Assembly (NCBI RefSeq): GCF_000167355.1
Contig: NZ_AAEW02000001.1
Coordinates: 186,001-250,000, forward strand
Source: Desulfuromonas acetoxidans DSM 684
GTDB taxonomy: Bacteria > Desulfobacterota > Desulfuromonadia > Desulfuromonadales > Desulfuromonadaceae
DNA: 64,000 nt
Reading direction: 5' to 3'
The notes under the pieces: model-generated
Told to the model about the DNA's origin: nothing
Database searches by the model: none
The model's input: only the letters and a program-made list of their open reading frames with translations
Made by a program: the position numbers and the translations under genes
In this document: piece by piece, positions 25,199 through 34,427 of the stretch
Layout: the number at the start of each line of letters is the position of its first letter
Position numbering within the stretch: position 1 is the stretch's first letter

Positions 25199-25205
25199 AA
25201 AAACC

Positions 25206-25321
25206 CTGAGTTCTGAGTTCTGAGTTCTGAGTTCTGAGTTCTGAGTTCTGAGTTCTGAGTTCTGAGTTCTGAGTTCTGAGTTCTGAGTTCTGAGTTCTGA
25301 GTTCTGAGTTCTGAGTTCTGA
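25206..25321 (-). repeat. Heptamer tandem array AGAACTC, 16.6 perfect copies
   Basis: Unit on the coding strand is AGAACTC. There are 16 complete copies plus four bases, all identical. The array fills the gap between the PaaK-like stop (25372) and the dppA-like start (25198), leaving only about seven bases to the start codon. On the gene side, before the array, a degenerate leader of AGTNCTN heptamers ends in AGTAAAACCTTTC. It reads as repeated R-T-Q-N-S-E-L in every coding-strand frame with no stop. Confidence 0.98.
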
Positions 25322-25371
25322 AAGGTTTTACTTCGTACTCAAAACTCAGGACTAAGCACTTTCTCTTCAAC

Positions 25372-26745
25372 TTAGAACTGCCTTTTCAAATACAACTCTT
25401 CAGCAACTTTGCTGATCACCGGCCGGTATTTGCCGGAACGCGCCGGTTTGATCTCATCAACCAGTTCCACTTCGATCCGGTCATCACCGCCGAGGCGCTG
25501 AGTCGCCTTAGCCCTGACCTGCTCAATGCCATCGGCCGGAAACTGATCATTGGTGACAAGGCGAATGTGAATCGCGCCAATCTCTTCCTGGACCACCTGA
25601 AATTTGACGATCCCTTTAACGGCACGGGCGATATAGATAAACGAATACCCCACCACCCACTTACCGGCCTTGGTAACGATAAACTCTACGGCGCGCCCAC
25701 CGCTGATGGAGACCGAAGACAGCGTCCGGCCGCAAGCACACGGCTTTTGGGACAGGGTGACAATATCGCCAGTGCGATAACGGATCATGGGAAAGGCCGG
25801 CCCCACAAGATTAGTGACCACGAGCTCTCCTTCACCCTCTGTCGGTTGCAGTGTTTGCGGATCAATAGTTTCCAGAAATAACTGCTCATCCATGCAATGC
25901 ATGGTGCCATAGCTACATTCATGACCAATCAACCCGGCTTCACGCAAACCGTAGGAATCGTAAACCGGCACGCCAAAGCCCTGCTCGATCAGCTCACGGT
26001 CGATATCGGACAGCAGTTCACTGGTGGTGATAATCATGGCTAACCCACTGCTTTTCAGTTCCGTCAGGTCCAATCCCAACGATTGGGCCATGGTAACGGT
26101 CAAGACAAAGGTGCTCGGATAGCCGAAAATGCACTTGGGTCGCCACGTGAGCCATTGAGCGAAATAGGACTTCAAGCGCTCGGGTGTGACTTCAAACCCA
26201 TTGGTTAACGCATCATTGATCAGCCAATCACGCACCTGCTTAATGCGGTCCTGCTTGCTCAGTTCTACCGGTGATCCCCAGTAGTAAAGTTCTTTTTCAC
26301 CCCGTTGCATCCCCACCCATTCATGGCCACGCATCCGAGCGGCATTGATCTGCGCCTCGCGCGTCGATGAGGTATAAAACTCCAATGCTTCGTTGGTCGA
26401 ACCACTGGTACGCACCAGTTGCACGCGTTTGCCTTCGTCTTTCCACACCATGGTTTCACGCTGGTTGCGTATGATCTCTTTGTTGAGGAATGGGAAGCGT
26501 TGCAAGTCTTTCAGAGACTGAATCGTCTGAGGATAGAGCCCCCTTTGATCCATAAGTGTGCGCCAGTACGGCGTATGCTGATAGGCCAATTGAACGATGC
26601 GTTGAAACCGTTCCAACTGCAGGTGCCGCAGACGTTCCCGGCCCCAATACTCAGACTGCAACAACTGACCGAGAATGGAAAAGCTCTCCCGTCCCAGCAA
26701 CTGTTCCTGCATTTTGAAAATTTGACGTGCAATGATCGGGATCAT
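25372..26745 (-). CDS. Phenylacetate-CoA ligase-like (CapK/PaaK) adenylate-forming enzyme
   Basis: A 457-residue ANL-superfamily enzyme of the PaaK/CapK type. Motifs: VQLVRTSGSTNEALEFYTS (ATP P-loop), GYPSTFVLTVTMAQS, YDSYGLREAGLIGHEC and MIRYRTGDIVTL. The C-terminal domain ends ...ARSGKYRPVISKV. It probably activates a carboxylic acid for transfer to the polysaccharide. CapK-like proteins are common in capsule loci. The substrate is unknown. Its stop codon TAA lies within an AGTTCTA-type heptamer, and its start follows a degenerate heptamer spacer. Confidence 0.88.
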   Translation of the reverse strand: MIPIIARQIFKMQEQLLGRESFSILGQLLQSEYWGRERLRHLQLERFQRIVQLAYQHTPYWRTLMDQRGLYPQTIQSLKDLQRFPFLNKEIIRNQRETMVWKDEGKRVQLVRTSGSTNEALEFYTSSTREAQINAARMRGHEWVGMQRGEKELYYWGSPVELSKQDRIKQVRDWLINDALTNGFEVTPERLKSYFAQWLTWRPKCIFGYPSTFVLTVTMAQSLGLDLTELKSSGLAMIITTSELLSDIDRELIEQGFGVPVYDSYGLREAGLIGHECSYGTMHCMDEQLFLETIDPQTLQPTEGEGELVVTNLVGPAFPMIRYRTGDIVTLSQKPCACGRTLSSVSISGGRAVEFIVTKAGKWVVGYSFIYIARAVKGIVKFQVVQEEIGAIHIRLVTNDQFPADGIEQVRAKATQRLGGDDRIEVELVDEIKPARSGKYRPVISKVAEELYLKRQF

Positions 26746-26749
26746 AAAA

Positions 26750-26804
26750 CCTCAACGTTCAGCTCTAAGTGCTTAGTACTAAGTACTGAGAACTTAGGAC
26801 TCGA
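26750..26804 (-). repeat. Degenerate heptamer spacer (AGTNCTN units)
   Basis: The whole spacer between 25372-26745 and 26806-27813 reads as consecutive 7-base units on the coding strand such as AGTCCTA, AGTTCTC, AGTACTT, AGTACTA and AGCACTT. It ends in GAGGTTTTATG, like the ends of the perfect arrays at 25206 and 32003. No perfect tandem copy is present. Confidence 0.85.
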
Positions 26805-26805
26805 A

Positions 26806-27813
26806 TTAAACCCAATAAAAATTATTCACCCCTTGCACCGCTTTACGCACCAGCGCCCGTAGGGGCCGGTTTATCAGGCAGGGTTCCACCGCTTTGGGTT
26901 GATAGTTCTTTTCTTTCACCAGATGAGCTAGATCAGAAAACGTACGTGGCGGATAAGCTTGGCGATTGTCATCCAGCCAGTCACAGAACTTTTCAAAACG
27001 CCGCGTGACGATGCGGTTCAACTTGCCATCGTGGTATTGCTTGTCGCGCACTTTAAACAGACTGAAACTGTGCAGAATCAGCACCGCTTCACCACCGGCA
27101 TCGCAGATCATCTTGACCGCATCACGACACTCCTCAAACGACGAGCCCATCAGATCAACCGGCTTAGAGGGGTGCAGTCCCGGCACCTTGGGCTGTTGAT
27201 ACGCGGAAAGCGCCACTTCCAGCACATCGCCGTACCATTTGCCGCCGTTGTAGCGTTGTTGTTCATTGAAACGACATTGGCCACCGACATAAGGAAACGT
27301 ATAACTGCTGTCGATCCAAATGCCAGCCTTTGCCAGAGCGGCCAAGGTCTCTTCAGACGCGCCCATATTCCCGGCGCGAAAAGCAACAGGCCTTGGTGCA
27401 CCCCACTGCTCCAATCGGTTCGACCCTTCTGTAACCATCTGTTGCTGAACATCCAGGGGAAGGTCCGCCATCTGATCGGTTTGGACATGAGACTGCCCCG
27501 CCTGCATCTGCCCGTAATGAACATGGTTCGGATGAATGTGCAGCTGGACATCCTGGTCCTGCTCCACCAGATAGCGTACAACCGGTTCCGTTTCTCCCGG
27601 GTAGCCCAGTTCATCGTTAAACGGTTCAACGAAGAATGTCGCCTGGAGATCTCGCTGCTGCAAGATGTCGCAAATCAAAGGAACCCCGTAGCGCTTGTCG
27701 CCATAGTCGCCCATCATGCCCAATTGCGGCGAAACAGGTTTGAGCTGGAGGTTCTGCCACGCCCCGCCCATGCTGCATTCGACATCAAATGTGATGTAAA
27801 CTCCTGGGTTCAT
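26806..27813 (-). CDS. Polysaccharide deacetylase (NodB-like)
   Basis: A 335-residue protein with the NodB fold: YITFDVECSMGG at the N-terminus (Asp/Glu metal region), LQATFFVEPF, QLHIHPNHVHYGQ (His-x-His), and PVAFRAGNMGAS. It may N-deacetylate amino sugars in the EPS. A dedicated deacetylase of the TIGR03006 type is also present at 34424, so this is a second one. No signal peptide is seen, suggesting a cytoplasmic enzyme. Flanked by heptamer spacers. Confidence 0.88.
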   Translation of the reverse strand: MNPGVYITFDVECSMGGAWQNLQLKPVSPQLGMMGDYGDKRYGVPLICDILQQRDLQATFFVEPFNDELGYPGETEPVVRYLVEQDQDVQLHIHPNHVHYGQMQAGQSHVQTDQMADLPLDVQQQMVTEGSNRLEQWGAPRPVAFRAGNMGASEETLAALAKAGIWIDSSYTFPYVGGQCRFNEQQRYNGGKWYGDVLEVALSAYQQPKVPGLHPSKPVDLMGSSFEECRDAVKMICDAGGEAVLILHSFSLFKVRDKQYHDGKLNRIVTRRFEKFCDWLDDNRQAYPPRTFSDLAHLVKEKNYQPKAVEPCLINRPLRALVRKAVQGVNNFYWV

Positions 27814-27820
27814 AACGGCA

Positions 27821-27852
27821 AGTCCTGAGTGAGAAGTTCTGAGTCCTTAGTC
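27821..27852 (-). repeat. Degenerate heptamer spacer containing the four-helix gene stop
   Basis: On the coding strand the units are ACTAAGG, ACTCAGA, ACTTCTC, ACTCAGG and ACTTGCC, running from the stop codon of the four-helix-bundle gene (its TAA is inside the first unit) to the start of the deacetylase gene. Confidence 0.85.
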
Positions 27853-28239
27853 GCCACGGTCCTTATCCTTGTTCTTTTGAGCTTCAATGGAGCGACGTAG
27901 GCCTGAAATGACACGTGAGGTTTCCTCTGCCAATGCCTTTGCCTCGCCGAACTGCGTCGCGTCAATCAATTGCGCATCAAAAGCAACGTAAAGTTGGGCC
28001 CGCACTTCCGCACAAGAACCTTTGGCGATCACCAAAAAACGATGAAACTCAGTCGGCGAAGACCGATCAAACCCTTCGGCAATATTCGATAGAACAGAAA
28101 CACTTGCCCGTTGAATCTGGTCACGTAAACCAAAATCCCGTGCCAATGCTGTTTCGCGCGCTATCCCGTAGATCAAACGTGCCAACGCTCTGGCTTTTTG
28201 CCAGGCGATCAAATCTTCAAAACATCGAACCGCTGCCAT
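27847..28239 (-). CDS. Four helix bundle protein (S23/bAvd-like, TIGR02436 type)
   Basis: A 130-residue protein, close to the family length. It begins with the characteristic FEDLIAWQKAR, then GLRDQIQRASVSVLSNIAEGF and EFHRFLVIAKGSCAEVRAQLYVA. The C-terminus is a charged KNKDKDRGD tail. Family members include the Leptospira 23S rRNA intervening-sequence ORF and the Avd accessory protein of diversity-generating retroelements, but here there is no rRNA and no reverse transcriptase in the window. Function is unknown. The gene lies inside an EPS operon and is flanked on both sides by degenerate heptamers of the same type as the perfect arrays. Confidence 0.93.
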   Translation of the reverse strand: MAAVRCFEDLIAWQKARALARLIYGIARETALARDFGLRDQIQRASVSVLSNIAEGFDRSSPTEFHRFLVIAKGSCAEVRAQLYVAFDAQLIDATQFGEAKALAEETSRVISGLRRSIEAQKNKDKDRGD

Positions 28240-28250
28240 ACATTTCCAAT

Positions 28251-28274
28251 CTCAGCACTCAGAACTAAGCACTT
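28251..28274 (-). repeat. Degenerate heptamer spacer upstream of the four-helix gene
   Basis: Coding-strand units AGTGCTT, AGTTCTG and AGTGCTG, then a short ATTGG stretch and the ATG. It matches the leader units in front of the perfect arrays at 25206 and 29545. Confidence 0.85.
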
Positions 28275-28285
28275 CGCACGGTGTT

Positions 28286-29530
28286 TTAATTCACAATTTC
28301 ATGCCCGCGTGCGCCAAGCTTTTTCAGCATTTGCCTGAAATCAACAGCAAAGGGTTTCGGATCGGCGAGCAGGAACGAATCATCCTTGGTCCACGGGCCA
28401 CAGTTCCACAGAACAGTCAGGGCCGCTTCAAAGCGACCAAGGTGCGTTTGTCCCGGCGGCAGTTCGTCGCGGCGCATCTGACCGAGAAACCAGTTGGATT
28501 CACCCCCGAGGATGCGTGACCGCAAGCCGATCTTATAAGGTGTTTTACGCATCTTCTCCGGCTCAAAATGGCTCTGCCACAGATTGAACGGTGCTTCGAA
28601 CCCAGCCATGACCACCGTGGGCAGCCCACCGCTGAAGCGGGGATTGATCTCGAGAAAAATATACTTTCCGGTATCCGGATCGTAATGGAACTGCACTCCG
28701 GCAATCCCCTGCCAGTTAAGCGCTTTGAGCAACTTGACCGTGTCATCAATCACCGCCGGATGATGGCAACTGATGCGCTGGACGGTAACACCTCCTGCCA
28801 GGGGCATATGATGTTCACCGATATAGTCGCCGGTCATAAACATCTCGCCCTCGTGCATGAGAATCTGCACGTGCTCTTCCGCTCCGGGATGATATTCCTG
28901 CACCAGAACATTGTCGGCAAAGGTCTCAAATTGGCGATGCCAGTTGAGCAGCTCCTCCAGAGTTCGGGCGTAGGCGGCTTTGACCGGCACCTTGCCGGCA
29001 TCGACATTCTGTTTGCGGGTGCGTAACACCAAGGGGTACTGCAAGGTCGATTCCGCCCCCGCTTCCATCAGTTCATCCAGACACATCCCTTTGGCCACCG
29101 GGATCTCCAAATCGAGACACAGTTGGTGGACGTAATCTTTGTCGGTTGCCTTGTCAAAGTTGTCCCGCGACGGCGAAAACAGATGAACCTCAGCTGCATC
29201 AAGCTGATCCCGCATCGAAATCAGGCGGTTATGAAATCCTTCCGAGACCGGCATGATCGATCCAACATCCAACTGCCGGACCAACGTCAGTATCTCATCG
29301 TCAAAACCGGACTCATGCGGCTTGTGATCAAGAATCCAGGCACTGGCCGAATAACGACTGTGAGCCGACTGGCCGTCCTTGGTATTGGTAACGGCATGTA
29401 CTTCCAAGCCATGGCGCGCCAGGCTGCGAACCACCCACAAGCCAACCTGGGTGTCGCCGACAATGGCCAGAACACGACGGGACCGCTCGTGCTGCTTCAA
29501 TGTTGTGTTGAATGGTTTAACTTGTTGCAT
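28286..29530 (-). CDS. ATP-grasp domain carboxylate-amine ligase-like protein
   Basis: A 414-residue protein. N-terminal Rossmann-like start VLAIVGDTQVGLWVVRSLARHG is followed by an ATP-grasp fold: YPLVLRTRKQ, NVLVQEYHPGAEEHVQILMHEGE and the metal-binding IFLEINPRFSGGLP. Substrates are unknown. It may join an amino acid or acyl group to a sugar or lipid carrier. Start: ATG at 29530 with AGGAG 7 nt upstream. The SD lies directly after a 9.6-copy heptamer array. Confidence 0.85.
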   Translation of the reverse strand: MQQVKPFNTTLKQHERSRRVLAIVGDTQVGLWVVRSLARHGLEVHAVTNTKDGQSAHSRYSASAWILDHKPHESGFDDEILTLVRQLDVGSIMPVSEGFHNRLISMRDQLDAAEVHLFSPSRDNFDKATDKDYVHQLCLDLEIPVAKGMCLDELMEAGAESTLQYPLVLRTRKQNVDAGKVPVKAAYARTLEELLNWHRQFETFADNVLVQEYHPGAEEHVQILMHEGEMFMTGDYIGEHHMPLAGGVTVQRISCHHPAVIDDTVKLLKALNWQGIAGVQFHYDPDTGKYIFLEINPRFSGGLPTVVMAGFEAPFNLWQSHFEPEKMRKTPYKIGLRSRILGGESNWFLGQMRRDELPPGQTHLGRFEAALTVLWNCGPWTKDDSFLLADPKPFAVDFRQMLKKLGARGHEIVN

Positions 29531-29544
29531 AAGGAACTCCTGTT

Positions 29545-29611
29545 CTGAGTTCTGAGTTCTGAGTTCTGAGTTCTGAGTTCTGAGTTCTGAGTTCTGAGTT
29601 CTGAGTTCTGA
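29545..29611 (-). repeat. Heptamer tandem array AGAACTC, 9.6 perfect copies
   Basis: Nine complete identical copies plus four bases, ending in the same phase as the arrays at 25206 and 32003. The downstream (gene-proximal) end supplies ACAGGAGTTCC before the ATG at 29530. The upstream leader encodes the last residues (SPEC) and stop of the preceding glycosyltransferase. Confidence 0.98.
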
Positions 29612-29621
29612 AAGATTTTAC

Positions 29622-30782
29622 TTAGCACTCAGGACTAAGCACTTTCTCAAAGACCTTATAAACTTCCTCGGCCACCTGATCCCAACTGCGCACACCGCTG
29701 GCAGAACGCACCTGCTGCGGTGGCCATGTCTTCTCCAGCACCTGGCTTAACGCCTGTTTGAGCGGGGCCACCTGTTGCGCTGGCACCATCCGACCACACT
29801 CCGGTTGGGGCAGAATATCGGCAACTGCCCCCACATCGGTGGCCACCACCGGTGTCCCGCAGGCCAGACTTTCCAACACCGCGTTGGGGCAGCCTTCACG
29901 GTATGAAGCCAGCACGCTGATATCTGCAGCACTGTAAAAATAGGGAATCAGGTCATACCCCTGTCGCCCGGGCAGAATCAGTCGGTCTTCAACGCCATGC
30001 TTTTTCGCCACTTCCAGCAGTTGTTCCTTACTACCGCCCTGAGCATCGCCACCTACAATGATCAGGCGCACATCATCCGGCAGCGCAGCCAGGGCTTCGA
30101 TCACTTCATGATGCCCTTTGCGGGGGCCAAGATGAGCCACGGTCACCAGCAGGCGGCCAGTTGCGGGTAGATGTAATTTTTCACGGCATTTCTGCCGGTC
30201 GCGGATGCGGAAATGTTTCAAATCCACACCATTGGGAATCACCGTCAATCGCTGGGTATCAACACCCAGACGAACCGCTTCTTCGGCCATGCGCGATGAA
30301 ACACTGATCACCGCCTGAGCTCCCAGCAAAGCCCGGCGGCATTGCTGGGTCTGGCTGTCGTCCTTCAGACACTCATACAGCTTACCGCGCAGGGTAATCA
30401 CGTAAGGAATATTAAGTTTTTGCGCCAGCAGTGCCACACCAACGCCATCCGGCCAGACAAAATGGGCGTCGAGAAGATCCGGTTGCCAGCTTTTTTGTAG
30501 AGATCCCAACCAGCGGCGCAAACCTGACGCATAAAGGCGGCCATCAGAATTTTTAAAAAACTTCGGGATATAAAAAAAACGGGGCCGGAACACGGACATG
30601 GCGTTCCAGCACTGTTCGTTTGCGTCACTGGCCGTTCCAGTCACCAGAGGAAACCAGGGCACCGGCGAACACACTTTCAACTCCGTTTGCTGGGCCAAGG
30701 CGGCGAGACGCTGGTAGACAAAGATCCCCCAAGTCGGGTTGTCCTGATTGGGGAAACAATATGAAAACGACAGCACCTTCAT
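29622..30782 (-). CDS. Glycosyltransferase family 4
   Basis: A 386-residue GT-B enzyme. Motifs: VLSFSYCFPNQDNPTWGIFVYQRLAAL at the N-terminus, VTVAHLGPRKGHHEVIEALAAL, LPGRQGYDLIPYFYSAADISVLASYREGCPNAVLESLACGTPVVATDVG with the EX7E donor site. The final residues KVLSPEC are encoded by the heptamer leader of the array at 29545, so this C-terminus has been shaped by the repeat. Gene is 8 bp after the next upstream glycosyltransferase gene. Confidence 0.9.
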   Translation of the reverse strand: MKVLSFSYCFPNQDNPTWGIFVYQRLAALAQQTELKVCSPVPWFPLVTGTASDANEQCWNAMSVFRPRFFYIPKFFKNSDGRLYASGLRRWLGSLQKSWQPDLLDAHFVWPDGVGVALLAQKLNIPYVITLRGKLYECLKDDSQTQQCRRALLGAQAVISVSSRMAEEAVRLGVDTQRLTVIPNGVDLKHFRIRDRQKCREKLHLPATGRLLVTVAHLGPRKGHHEVIEALAALPDDVRLIIVGGDAQGGSKEQLLEVAKKHGVEDRLILPGRQGYDLIPYFYSAADISVLASYREGCPNAVLESLACGTPVVATDVGAVADILPQPECGRMVPAQQVAPLKQALSQVLEKTWPPQQVRSASGVRSWDQVAEEVYKVFEKVLSPEC

Positions 30783-30790
30783 CCGCTCAC

Positions 30791-31996
30791 CTATCGCTTG
30801 ATCGCCGCATAAATATCCTGATACACCGCTGTGGTCTGCTGCCAGGTGTGATGTTCGCGCACCCAGCGCATCCCCTGCTGCTGCAGCGCCTCGCGTTGCT
30901 GGTCATTGTCGAGCAACATCTGCAGACGTTCGGCCAGAGCCTGTTCATCCCCGGCCTTGAACAGCACCCCGGTTTGACCATCGTCGATCAGTTCTTTGTG
31001 ACCGCCGACATCACTGGCCACCAGCACCTTGCCCATGGCCATCGCCTCCAAGGGTTTGAGCGGCGTCACCAGCTCGGTGAGACGCATGGAGTAACGGGGA
31101 TAGGCCAAGATGTCGATCATGGCATAGACCCCCGGCACCCGCTCATGGGGAATACGACCGGGCATCACCACGCGATCCGTCAGCCCCAGGGATGCAATCA
31201 AGGCCCTAAGCTCGTCCTCCATCTCACCGCCACCGACCAGCAACAACACGGTATCGGGCTGATTTTCAGCAACTCGCGCAAAGGAACGCACCAGAAGATC
31301 CAACCCCTCGTATCGGTAAAACGAGCCGATAAAGCCGATCACTTTTTTGCCGGCAAGCCCCCAGCTGTCCAGATATTCTTCATCTGCCGGGCAAGGTTGA
31401 AAATCATCCGGGTTAACACCGTTGAATACCGGGGTGATTTTCTGTGCGCCAATGCCGCGCGCCACCAAGTCATTTTTTAAGCCATTACACAAAATGGCCA
31501 CATGATCCGCCCGCCGACACACCATGGTTTCAATCCTTTTGGTCAGCCGATAACGTAGCGACCCTTCTTGAGTGGTGCCGTGATCAACTGCGGCATCTTC
31601 CCAGAAAGCACGAATTTCATAGACCAACGGCAGCTTGAGTTTATGCGCCACCCACAAAGCCGGAAGCGCATTGAGAACCGGCGAGTGGGCATGGAGGATG
31701 ACCGGTTGTTCTTCTCGTGCCACCTGATAAAGCCGCCTGGCCAGGGCAACCATCAACCGTGCTTCGCTGGTCATCGGTCCCGGCAAGGACGGTGTGGCAC
31801 CGGTTCGATAATAGGTAAATCCGTTAATCTCTTCCTTGTCAGCCCAGTCGCCCTGCCAACTCTCTTCGTGCTTCGGTGAGGTCACAATCACCGGCTCGTA
31901 ACCCAGTTTGCGTTGGGCGCGAAACAGGTTCTGGCTGCGAAAGGTGTAGCCACTGTGCAACGGCAGACTGTGATCAAGGATATGGAGAATTTTCAT
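30791..31996 (-). CDS. Exosortase A-associated glycosyltransferase (TIGR04063 type)
   Basis: A 401-residue GT4 enzyme with the N-terminus KILHILDHSLPLHSGYTFRSQNLFRAQRKLGYE, typical of the exosortase-A-associated Daro_2409-type subfamily. It shows FIGSFYRYEGLDLLVRSF and the EX7E-like ELVTPLKPLEAMAMGKVLVASDVGG. It probably adds a sugar to the EPS repeat. The ATG lies seven bases after a 22.6-copy heptamer array, and CAGG near the array end is the likely ribosome site. Confidence 0.9.
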   Translation of the reverse strand: MKILHILDHSLPLHSGYTFRSQNLFRAQRKLGYEPVIVTSPKHEESWQGDWADKEEINGFTYYRTGATPSLPGPMTSEARLMVALARRLYQVAREEQPVILHAHSPVLNALPALWVAHKLKLPLVYEIRAFWEDAAVDHGTTQEGSLRYRLTKRIETMVCRRADHVAILCNGLKNDLVARGIGAQKITPVFNGVNPDDFQPCPADEEYLDSWGLAGKKVIGFIGSFYRYEGLDLLVRSFARVAENQPDTVLLLVGGGEMEDELRALIASLGLTDRVVMPGRIPHERVPGVYAMIDILAYPRYSMRLTELVTPLKPLEAMAMGKVLVASDVGGHKELIDDGQTGVLFKAGDEQALAERLQMLLDNDQQREALQQQGMRWVREHHTWQQTTAVYQDIYAAIKR

Positions 31997-32002
31997 AAAA
32001 AC

Positions 32003-32160
32003 CTGAGTTCTGAGTTCTGAGTTCTGAGTTCTGAGTTCTGAGTTCTGAGTTCTGAGTTCTGAGTTCTGAGTTCTGAGTTCTGAGTTCTGAGTTCTGAGTT
32101 CTGAGTTCTGAGTTCTGAGTTCTGAGTTCTGAGTTCTGAGTTCTGAGTTCTGAGTTCTGA
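32003..32160 (-). repeat. Heptamer tandem array AGAACTC, 22.6 perfect copies
   Basis: Twenty-two identical copies plus four bases, the longest of the three arrays, in the junction between the broken glycosyltransferase (stop at 32185) and the TIGR04063-type gene (start 31996). It starts after AGTAAAATTTCTTC on the coding strand and ends in CTCAGGTTTTTATG. Confidence 0.98.
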
Positions 32161-32184
32161 AGAAATTTTACTAAGCAATCAGTA

Positions 32185-33405
32185 CTAAGCGCTTTCTTCA
32201 ATGATTCCATTTAATTGTTGCAGATGAGAAGCCCAGCTGTGCTGTCGTTCCACATAGGCTCTTGCGTTAGTGCCCATTTCTCGACGACGGGGTTCATCGT
32301 CAAGCAAATCGATGATCGCGGCGGCCATTGTCGCTTCGTCGTCGGCAACAATCAGTTCTTCACCATCAACGGCATGGGTTCCGGTTGCCGCACCACGAGT
32401 CGCCACCACCGGGCGTTCCATAGCCATGGCTTCGAGCACTTTGTTTTGAATGCCGCGGGCAATCAGCAACGGCACGACACAGATGGTCGCCGTGGCCAGG
32501 TGATCGCGCATATCGGGGACCGTGCCAGTCACGTCAATACCAGGTATTTTTTCGAGGGCACGCACCGCAGGCGTTGGATTGCGCCCGGCAATGCAGAACG
32601 ACACCTCAGGAACCTGCTGACGAATCAGGGGGAAAATCTTTTCCGCAAACCACACCGCCCCCTCGACATTAGGCCAATAGTCCATGGCCCCGGAAAATAC
32701 CAGCTTGCACGGCTCCGTGGAAAAACGCTGTTGATCAACACCGCAAAGAGAAAAATAATCGAGATCCACACCGTTGGACAGCGCCTCAACCTTATCGACA
32801 TTGACATGCTCACCGAGCACATTTTTTTCTTCTTCACTAACCAGAAACACCCGATCAAACTCATGAACGATACGCTGCTCAAAGGTTCGCAATAAGCGTC
32901 CCTCGCGCCGATAGAGCCAACGCATCAGCGGAGTTTTTTTTTCGGCATATTGCAGCCATTTTTCCGAATCGACATCAATCAGATCATCAAGCAGTGTGAC
33001 GTGATGAAACCGCTCCGGCCAATGACGCGAGCGAAACACATAGTCCGCCATGGAGGAACAGAAACAGAGGATAGCCGCTGGGTTCTGCTGTTCAAGATAA
33101 TCATCAACGGTCTGTTACAGAGGATGGGAATAAAAGCATTGCTGGGAAAAGGAACGTCCGGTAACCAGCGACATGCCAGCATACACACACATGGTTTTCC
33201 CGGTGCGTACCCGGCAATGAAACTGATCAACCATCTGCTGCAGAGCAGGAATGTGTTGGCAATCCTCAGGGTCATCAATCAGACATACCAGAGTGACCCG
33301 ATAGTGTCGGGCCAGATGCTGCACCATGTGATAAGTACGGATCTTATCGCCCTTATCGGGGGGAAAAGGGATGCGATGCGCGAGGACGAGAACATCTTTT
33401 TTCAT
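32185..33405 (-). pseudogene. TIGR03087-type XrtA glycosyltransferase with in-frame stop
   Basis: Two ORFs in the same reading frame make one protein of about 406 residues. The N-terminal piece (MKKDVLVLAHRIPFPPDKGDKIRTYHMVQHLA) ends at a TAA at 33117-33115. The other piece resumes immediately with QTVDDYLEQQNPAAILCFCSSMADYVF and carries the GT core (LVFSGAMDYWPNVEGAVWFAEKIFP, IQNKVLEAMAMERPVVATRGA). The reading frame is not shifted, so a single C-to-T change (CAA to TAA) explains it. Family length supports the joined gene. The start overlaps the FemAB stop by ATGA. Either the glycosyltransferase is lost, the stop is a sequencing error, or the two halves are made separately. Confidence 0.88.
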
Positions 33406-34427
33406 AGTGAAATATACTTTCTCAGCTCGGGTCCCAAGGTATTGGCGACGGGTAACGGCAGCTTCTGCCACAGGCTGGTCACCCAGTGACGCAGTGGTGA
33501 CGTGCTTCCGTGACCAGCCGTCGCTTTCTCCGTCTGATCGGCACAGAGGTCATACCAGTAAAGCGGTTGCGGGCTCGCGCCCCACTGCTTTTTAAATCGA
33601 TAGGTTCCCTCTTCCGGCGTTGAACGGCCAAAATCAAAACGGGGATAACCGTGCTCACAGGCAAACGAGAGAAACGTCCAGTACAGCAACATGTTAGGGT
33701 TCATCTTGTTGAACTGGCGTCGCGCCGAAGCCCAGGGAATCACCACCAGATCAGGGTGAAGGAGAATAATTCCAGCTGCAGCAACCTCGCCCTGAGGTGT
33801 AAAAACCGTGCCGACCCGGCAATTTGCGCCGTAAGTTTCGACGACGGCATCAATCCACCGGCGGCTGTGCACCGGCGAACCTAGATCGCGCATGTTCTCA
33901 GCAAAGACGGAATAAAAGTCGTCGACCAATTCCAGCCCGCCGAGACGCGCAGTCAGTCCATCGCGCTGGGGTTTTTTGATCTGACTTCTCAACTTCGATT
34001 TCATGCCGTCCAGCAAGGCGGCACTGCTTTCGGGCAAATCGAGCACCATGCGCACTTTGTTGGTCTGGTTCGCCAGATGCGGCCGTTGCGGCAAAATGGA
34101 CCGCAATTGGCAAACCGCACTCTGTTCGGCCTGTTCCAGCAATGCCTCGACCACGTCAGAATCCCGCGCCAGTACACCACCGGCATCGCAATACGGCAGG
34201 GAAATCAGGCGGGATCCTCGCCACGGAATGCGAAAATCGATCAATGGTAGAATGCCGCAAATCTCTGCGCCATCTTCAGCCACCAGATAGTGGTGGCGGT
34301 AGCCGTACGCTTTTGCGACAGCCTGCTGCCAGGCCCACAACTGGTAGGGCGTACCGTCATCATGACCGGCAACATAATCGTCCCAGCGCTGACGATCTTC
34401 ATAGGTCGCTCGCCGTATCCGCATCAT
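33402..34427 (-). CDS. XrtA/PEP-CTERM system-associated FemAB family protein
   Basis: A 341-residue FemAB/GNAT-fold protein of the TIGR03019 type: RRATYEDRQRWDDYV, WQQAVAKAYGYRHHYLVAE, LPYCDAGGV, LRSQIKKPQRDGL, FDFGRSTPEEGTYRFKKQWGASPQPLYWY. FemAB proteins transfer amino acids from tRNA to peptidoglycan, but the substrate in exosortase loci is unknown. ATGA overlaps on both sides. The first ATG (34427) is chosen, with a second at 34424. Confidence 0.92.
   Translation of the reverse strand: MMRIRRATYEDRQRWDDYVAGHDDGTPYQLWAWQQAVAKAYGYRHHYLVAEDGAEICGILPLIDFRIPWRGSRLISLPYCDAGGVLARDSDVVEALLEQAEQSAVCQLRSILPQRPHLANQTNKVRMVLDLPESSAALLDGMKSKLRSQIKKPQRDGLTARLGGLELVDDFYSVFAENMRDLGSPVHSRRWIDAVVETYGANCRVGTVFTPQGEVAAAGIILLHPDLVVIPWASARRQFNKMNPNMLLYWTFLSFACEHGYPRFDFGRSTPEEGTYRFKKQWGASPQPLYWYDLCADQTEKATAGHGSTSPLRHWVTSLWQKLPLPVANTLGPELRKYISL

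Follow-up and report, generated by a model that had tools for sequence, protein, structure and literature searches.

Four-helix-bundle genes of the S23 family lie between inverted heptamer arms at operon junctions

The window analyzed here, 64,000 nucleotides of Desulfuromonas acetoxidans DSM 684 (contig NZ_AAEW02000001.1, positions 186,001 to 250,000 of the forward strand), contains an exopolysaccharide operon in which a small gene for a four-helix-bundle (4HB) protein of the S23 family lies between two arms built from 7-bp units. A first-pass annotation of the window had noticed the units and proposed that the protein could bind, spread or maintain them, but it overlooked the geometry: the arms are inverted, not just repeated. 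At the level of nucleotide sequence, three points can be taken as shown. A small open reading frame (ORF) of the S23/Avd fold sits between inverted arms of a locus-specific heptamer, the whole occupying the space between two cistrons of a co-directional operon. Among related species, some have the gene at a given junction and others lack it. Hairpins of the same unit that carry no ORF occur at neighboring junctions (in the window) or across the genome (in the Phycisphaerales genome G166). We consider it probable (about 0.6) that gene and arms form a compact element resembling the intervening sequence (IVS) of 23S rRNA that encodes S23, but situated between the genes of a protein operon.

The four-helix-bundle gene and its arms

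The 4HB gene is the sole PF05635 match at E <= 0.001 in the genome assembly that was searched (3.82 Mb, 51 contigs, 96% complete), and PF05635 (E 1.4e-33, 115.8 bits, cut-off 33.8) is in turn the sole Pfam match of its product, which also matches TIGR02436 (E 1.5e-30, 105.6 bits, cut-off 24). The AlphaFold 2 (AF2) model of the single chain has a four-helix-bundle fold with a predicted local distance difference test score of 94.1. Its Foldseek neighbors are 2gsc (XCC0516), which is the best PDB match and the only one found by sequence at E <= 0.1, 2rld (a Bacteroides S23 protein) and bAvd, 4dwl; Avd in the ribonucleoproteins of diversity-generating retroelements (8ub7 and others) follows at E about 0.01-0.04. 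The protein is probably a pentameric ring, like its solved relatives; the S23-family protein of X. campestris is a homopentamer (PMC4990558, cited throughout from part of its text). None of the PADLOC anti-phage defence models matches the gene at E <= 0.01 (0 families). The parts of the element are as follows, in window coordinates.

27814-28285, minus strand: complete 4HB element, filling the spacer between the ATP-grasp and deacetylase-like genes
28250-28275, minus strand: 5' arm, sense AGTGCTT AGTTCTG AGTGCTG; lag-7 score 9.5; pairs with the 3' arm
27847-28239, minus strand: four-helix-bundle (S23 / 23S_rRNA_IVP) ORF of 130 aa, the loop ORF of the element (PF05635, TIGR02436, AF2, Foldseek)
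27820-27850, minus strand: 3' arm, sense ACTAAGG ACTCAGA ACTTCTC ACTCAGG ACT; overlaps the stop codon; inverted with respect to the 5' arm

Degenerate heptamer units had been read on both flanks of this gene; they are indeed there, and they also fill the 26746-26805 junction. The heptamer is specific to the locus, and since one flank carries it in inverted orientation relative to the other, the flanks could pair as a hairpin with the ORF in its loop. The calculated duplex of the 5' and 3' arms has an energy of -27.9 kcal/mol, compared with -16.7 (SD 3.6) for mononucleotide shuffles, 3 of 500 being as low. The first-pass annotation had treated the repeats as separate targets beside the gene, and this part of its interpretation is not supported as stated: the arms belong to the element that holds the gene.

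Heptamers and inverted arms across the family

Confirmed relatives of the 4HB gene number 523 in a collection of 84,980 species' genomes, and the best 80 of them form the main sample, which is biased towards the subfamily of the window and includes near-copies. Its 71 labelled rows span 16 phyla. A stop or frameshift interrupts the match in 4 of the 80 loci.

The annotation had named a lack of heptamer enrichment near TIGR02436 genes in other genomes as the outcome that would speak against its proposal. Such enrichment is present. The pooled period test included 151 4HB genes, that of the window among them, and three with flanks shorter than 60 bases were dropped. A periodic flank was found in 135 of the remaining 148 genes (both flanks in 88, one in 47, none in 13); among the 721 control ORFs of the 80 loci, 103 had one. 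When near-copies were removed at 80% identity, a periodic flank remained in 115 of 126 genes (two flanks 74, one 41, none 11). Control ORFs more than 3 kb away had a heptamer-periodic flank in 53 of 480 cases. The link between protein and heptamers is therefore real and general, and lag 7 stands out when compared among lags 4-12. In a second sample, taken from the window's class, a lag-7 score of 12 or more was reached by 22 of the 30 best members and by 27 of 39 further members (40 were fetched; one had too short a flank), and at each of the other lags by 0 or 1.

The 80 loci (1.17 Mb) contain 125 period-7 segments, which are found in 50 of them. The corresponding numbers for periods 4, 5, 6, 8, 9, 10, 11, 12, 13 and 15 are 0, 1, 5, 0, 2, 4, 1, 3, 0 and 4; period 14, itself twice 7, accounts for 17. 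A distance of 150 bp or less from the gene match is found for 59 of the 125 period-7 segments, in 42 loci, and the remainder are farther away, many of them in a few array-rich loci such as L032, L062 and L095.

Flanks of 100 bp were scored for 78 of the 80 loci, two having shorter flanks. The median lag-7 scores of the two flanks are 10.25 and 12 for the 4HB genes and 3 and 3 for 289 control ORFs of the same loci, and the median inverted-repeat scores are 15 and 7, respectively. An inverted-repeat score of at least 12 is reached by 51 of the 78 4HB genes (40 of 62 after thinning at 80% identity) versus 3 of 284 control ORFs. Direct repeats were rejected as the arrangement of the flanks, the median direct-repeat score being equal to that of the controls (7 vs 7).

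Both neighbors are co-directional with the 4HB gene in 56 of 72 cases; the corresponding figure for control triples is 280 of 634. Two plasmid-borne 4HB genes lie among CRISPR-associated genes, one between cas10 and a Cmr3-family gene (L259, Picosynechococcus) and one between cas6 and cas4 with long GCTAAAA arrays (L261, Pseudanabaena). In Nitrospira (L046, L067, L068), the 4HB frame continues into the 3' arm, ending for example in SSVLSPQS, and the frame of the upstream gene continues into the 5' arm.

No match was found in 50,697 phage records. Plasmid records gave 25 matches in 72,556, mostly from cyanobacteria, and viral records one short partial contig. Phage or plasmid cargo was rejected on these counts. 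Five of the 25 plasmid matches were inspected by eye; all have short flank repeats, and a clean period of 7 is seen only in some. A quick tree of 77 4HB proteins resolves few forks; phyla are mixed on it yet clustered, with 33 changes (minimum 15, shuffled mean 50.7).

Arm matching and turnover

In 88 loci with two arms, the units of one arm differ from the inverted units of the other by a mean of 1.56 positions of 7, and the lowest value in 2000 permutations was 2.99. Between pairs of 4HB genes, the unit distance is 0.79 at 70-80% protein identity and 1.77 at 60-70%, and it is near the level of distant pairs below 60%. The units thus change fast while the arms of one locus match each other. 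A lasting code between protein and heptamer was considered and rejected, since likeness of the units is lost below about 60% protein identity.

Presence and absence of the gene were followed at a single junction, upstream of a PfkB-family gene in the genus g55 (18 loci of 19 genomes; the fragments L251 and L252 of G160 were left out). The 4HB gene is present there in 10 of 18 species and absent in 8. Where it is present, the arms are of the GTTCAAC type, except in L249, which has GTTCTAG-type arms on both sides. Among the junctions lacking the gene, short spacers of unrelated sequence are found in L236 (88 bp) and L248 (60 bp); L237 also has a spacer of 60 bp, with short repeats in it, L238 has an ORF-less hairpin of a different kind, and L241, L242, L244 and L246 have a different or unrecognized upstream gene or neighborhood. 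Two pairs of intact orthologues have dN/dS values of 0.09 and 0.05. The median over the 7 usable of 45 pairs is 0.167, and five of these 7 include a frameshifted copy (L243 or L245), which indicates that copies decay too.

The operon in the window and in related species

The operon genes are on the minus strand. Three of their products exceed the cut-offs of the XrtA/PEP-CTERM exopolysaccharide families TIGR04063, TIGR03087 and TIGR03019; the others include an ATP-grasp protein, an M55 peptidase and the deacetylase-like protein, the last slightly under its Pfam cut-off. Heptamers had been reported at six of the seven gene junctions, and both Tandem Repeats Finder (TRF) and reading of the sequence agree; the exceptional junction, 30783-30790, is indeed 8 bp long. 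Of the copy numbers given for the perfect arrays, 16.6 and 22.6 stand and 9.6 becomes 10.0 by TRF. TRF also reports an imperfect period-7 array at 26765-26787. It finds no further period-7 row at score 30 within the 64 kb, in keeping with the earlier remark that no heptamers were noticed elsewhere in the window. Genome-wide, the pattern AGTNCTNAGTNCTNAGTNCT has 46 matches, all at C1:211209-218158 (window 25209-32158), and the reversed-pattern control has 0.

The heptamers of these junctions are not solely direct repeats either. Each perfect array opposes a degenerate inverted arm, just as the flanks of the 4HB gene are mutually inverted, so that the window holds one ORF-bearing hairpin and four ORF-less ones. 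The latter consist of the following parts.

25206-25321, minus strand: ORF-less copy, perfect array of 16.6 units (TRF)
25330-25363, minus strand: inverted partner arm of the 25206 array, read from the sequence and paired with the array in the predicted fold
26764-26802, no strand assigned: palindromic ORF-less copy, AGTNCTN changing to its complement; a heptamer palindrome is also present in two sister species
29542-29611, minus strand: ORF-less copy, perfect array of 10.0 units (TRF); about 2 units in each of two sister species
29620-29648, minus strand: inverted arm opposite the 29542 array; overlaps the glycosyltransferase gene at 29622 at its 3' end
32003-32160, minus strand: ORF-less copy, perfect array of 22.6 units (TRF); about 12 and about 42 units in two sister species
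32170-32198, minus strand: inverted arm opposite the 32003 array; overlaps the glycosyltransferase gene at 32185 at its 3' end

The TIGR03087-type glycosyltransferase is split in the window. Its N-terminal part (33115-33471) stops at 33115 and the remainder forms ORF 32185-33051; by reading, the gene is continuous in G002 and G008.

These two genomes, of the same genus, have the operon (their deacetylase-like proteins are 86% and 91% identical to that of the window, respectively), without a 4HB gene at the junction of the ATP-grasp and deacetylase genes. The gene is missing from this junction in four relatives altogether (G002, G003, G006, G008), in which the junction has other content. The spacer is short in G006. 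In G003, a remnant resembling GxxExxY lies, by reading, between other inverted arms. In the two sister species, a hairpin of CACGGAA units occupies both the 4HB junction and the 25206 junction. A 137-nt copy of this hairpin has 7 matches in G002 and 6 in G008, all within or at the edge of the operon, and 0 matches in four other genomes searched, that of the window among them. AGTTCTG arrays are retained at other junctions of the operon in the two sister species with changed copy numbers. They persist there without the 4HB gene, though both genomes have a PF05635 match elsewhere; in this respect the proposal of the first-pass annotation is not supported as stated.

An unrelated small ORF, GxxExxY (PF13366), shows a parallel. 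The sole PF13366 match of G002 is inside the same operon, between CACGGAA-type arms (L229/L153). Among the best 30 PF13366 loci of the class, the inverted-repeat score is above the 99th percentile of the controls in 14; at lag 7 a score of at least 12 is reached in 0, and at lags 8, 9 and 10 in 4, 4 and 1. The 4HB and GxxExxY ORFs thus seem to lie in elements of one design that differ in arm period, those of GxxExxY being the less regular. In L202-L231, inverted arms whose units have lengths other than 7 often enclose the GxxExxY gene. In G003 (L154/L115), an apparent cysteine-synthase-like gene between the deacetylase and PaaK-like genes has arm-like sequence on both sides.

ORF-less hairpins across other genomes

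The 4HB gene of G166 carries the unit GAGGACT, and three consecutive copies of this unit (GAGGACT x3) occur 28 times in forward and 31 times in reverse orientation in that genome. Eight of these places were fetched, six of them because matches in the two orientations lay about 130 bp apart or less. Seven have two inverted arms and one has a single arm; by eye the loops are unlike one another. One such ORF-less hairpin lies between DUF503 and rbfA and another between the genes of ribosomal proteins L16 and L29. In one of the eight places, L267, the loop of the heptamer hairpin encloses another hairpin, which is built from a different heptamer (GGGTTCA).

For the GAGGACT unit, a link in trans between the 4HB gene and the heptamer is hinted at. 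GAGGACT x3 is found in 10 of 14 genomes whose 4HB flanks show the unit versus 1 of 20 picked for other units (Fisher p 7e-5), both sets having been chosen by the analyst according to the flank unit. The control read backwards matched in 2 genomes of the first set (38 times in G163) and in 3 of the second, and some GAGGACT x3 matches are the gene's own arms, the single match of G165 lying inside the L036 locus itself. A second unit, CGAGTTT x3, gives no clear support: it occurs in 4 of 34 genomes, the match in G181 fits the gene's own arm, the 4HB gene of G187 has a different unit, and the backwards control has 3 matches in G176.

Relation to known elements and repeats

The 23S rRNA IVS of Coxiella burnetii is described as a selfish element: its inverted repeats form a 28-bp stem with an S23 ORF in the loop, and RNase III excises it; two or three GACAGAT heptamers, their number differing by strain, precede the ORF (PMC4990558). 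Like the 4HB element, it has a terminal inverted-repeat stem that holds an S23 ORF in its loop, variable upstream heptamers, a sporadic presence and decaying ORFs. Unlike it, the 4HB element lies between operon genes, has both arms built of heptamers and has ORF-less copies at several junctions. A terminal complementary stem, as in the rRNA IVSs, is present in the window (by calculated energy) and family-wide, but the element lies between the ATP-grasp and deacetylase-like genes and, not being in rRNA, falls outside the IVS class as defined. The available part of the Coxiella paper does not generalize the design beyond rRNA, and it states that, as of 2016, S23 proteins were without a known function and neither the functionality of IVSs nor their origin was clear (PMC4990558).

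The fold of the 4HB protein is shared with bAvd of diversity-generating retroelements (4dwl_C, TM-score 0.70 by query and 0.81 by target, E 7.4e-3); no reverse transcriptase was found among the 10 window proteins scanned, from 22.3 to 34.4 kb. REPIN/RAYT systems combine one ORF-bearing unit with short ORF-less palindromic relatives. The 4HB elements resemble them in having ORF-bearing and ORF-less palindromic copies and differ in that the protein has no RAYT domain and the arms are heptamer arrays.

Heptamers are also known in their own right, from sources of which parts are cited here. The TAACTGA repeats of Beggiatoaceae, Cyanobacteria and Bacteroidetes are dispersed, variable in length, intergenic and mostly located just before start codons (PMC4679880); others are GGGAATC of Xanthomonas, some copies of which are inverted, and GGGGA(C/T)T of Nostoc (PMC4692102). 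The heptamers of the 4HB elements resemble all of these in being dispersed, length-variable and intergenic. No cause is established for any of the three in the parts cited (PMC4679880, PMC4692102), and the main text on TAACTGA, as far as available, does not mention S23, four helix or intervening (PMC4679880). According to a 2007 survey, heptamers rank first in abundance among the long simple repeats of most of the bacterial genomes it covered (cited in PMC4679880 and PMC4692102), and heptameric repeats were called over-represented in bacteria and without detailed literature as of 2015 (PMC4692102). Our literature search, which most subscription journals and preprints were beyond the reach of, found no paper tying S23/TIGR02436 genes to heptamer arms outside rRNA.

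A possible course of events and its alternatives

By combining these observations, it is possible to outline how an IVS-like element between protein genes might behave. The element would be co-transcribed with the operon, and its arms would pair in the mRNA. RNase III would then cut the stem and free the ORF-bearing loop. The neighboring cistrons would keep their own starts after the cut, and for this reason the insertion would be tolerated. The arrays may lengthen and shorten by slippage, the complementarity of the arms being kept by template switching in the palindrome or by selection. The protein is presumed to bind the RNA or DNA of the element and so to aid its persistence or spread, which is the least certain step.

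Several points weigh against this account. Processing by RNase III and spread of the element are steps that we infer. Neither a target-site duplication nor a clean empty site at the nucleotide level could be defined, the relatives being too diverged. The clustering of phyla on the 4HB tree means that much of the descent may be vertical. The 3' arm in the window itself is too degenerate to score as period 7 (lag-7 score 3.5). An inverted-repeat score below 12 is found in 27 of the 78 nearest relatives, and a direct-repeat score of at least 12 is commoner than in controls (10 of 78 vs 7 of 284). The 13 of 148 loci without a periodic flank include the distant members L166, L173 and L191, in which no heptamers are clear by eye; L073 has degenerate units by eye. 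In a sample of 11 genes from a gammaproteobacterial order, found using another query, lag 7 scores at least 7 in just 4, one of them the L053 gene again; the inverted arms persist, with a score of at least 12 in 6. Finally, the authors of the Coxiella paper consider it doubtful that S23p is produced in vivo (PMC4990558). Two side observations concern these loci: a 28-base tandem repeat lies downstream of the 4HB gene in L173 (L173:348-447), and several of the gammaproteobacterial cases resemble, by reading, one orthologue between an apparent S21 gene and a tRNA gene.

The junction hairpins might instead serve the host by segmenting the polycistronic mRNA, with the 4HB protein as an RNA-binding regulator of the operon. 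It fits this idea that the heptamer pattern matches 3 of 10 genomes of the genus, always within one operon, and that the unrelated CACGGAA hairpins of the two sister species occupy junctions of this operon too, with 7 and 6 matches, all of them inside it or at its edge. G166, however, has its hairpins between unrelated genes such as L16/L29 and DUF503/rbfA, and the presence of the gene at one site differs between species; a regulatory module of the host is on the whole unlikely. Less probable still is a DNA transposable element, in which the arms would be terminal inverted repeats, the 4HB protein would work with a transposase and the ORF-less hairpins would be miniature inverted-repeat transposable elements. 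The look of the arms, the copies with and without an ORF, the gene's presence or absence at a fixed site and the occurrence in 16 phyla would all suit a transposon. PF05635 is nevertheless the protein's sole Pfam match, and no transposase domain occurs among the ten window proteins scanned; the ORF-less loops are, by eye, unlike one another, as those of miniature elements would not be, and matches are scarce in phage (0 of 50,697) and plasmid (25 of 72,556) records.

It would hardly be credible that plain replication slippage formed variable-number tandem repeats in the spacers, with the 4HB gene as an unrelated passenger. The copy numbers do vary (22.6, about 12 and about 42 at one junction; 10, about 2 and about 2 at another), and a length of 7 nt has been proposed to suit polymerase slippage (cited in PMC4692102 and PMC4679880, as far as their text was available). 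Slippage leaves unexplained the frequency of periodic flanks (135 of 148 vs 103 of 721), the inverted matching arms and the occurrence of period 7 at the 4HB family but not at GxxExxY (0 of 30).

A bolder idea, which we regard as a long shot, is that bacterial heptamer arrays are the product of a dedicated writing system and not the debris of slippage. An S23/Avd-like ring, perhaps together with a polymerase or, like Avd in diversity-generating retroelements, with a reverse transcriptase (here one of the host), would add heptamers to the two 3' ends at a break or nick, or copy them there. If true, this would yield arms that are inverted and of a single genome-specific unit, enclosing loops that are unlike each other and may or may not hold the ORF; it would also explain why heptanucleotide repeats are reported to be in excess in bacterial genomes. 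The S23 IVSs would then represent, in rRNA, one branch of a much wider class of elements, and the GxxExxY elements, with their arms of other periods, a second branch.

Implications

The arrangement of a 4HB gene between inverted heptamer arms recurs around relatives in many bacterial phyla, slotted between the genes of operons. It provides a rule at the level of sequence, inverted heptamer arms around PF05635 ORFs, which is testable in any genome or RNA-seq set. The tie between the gene and its arms joins two open questions, one being the role of the S23 family and the origin of the IVSs, the other the excess of heptamer repeats in bacteria.

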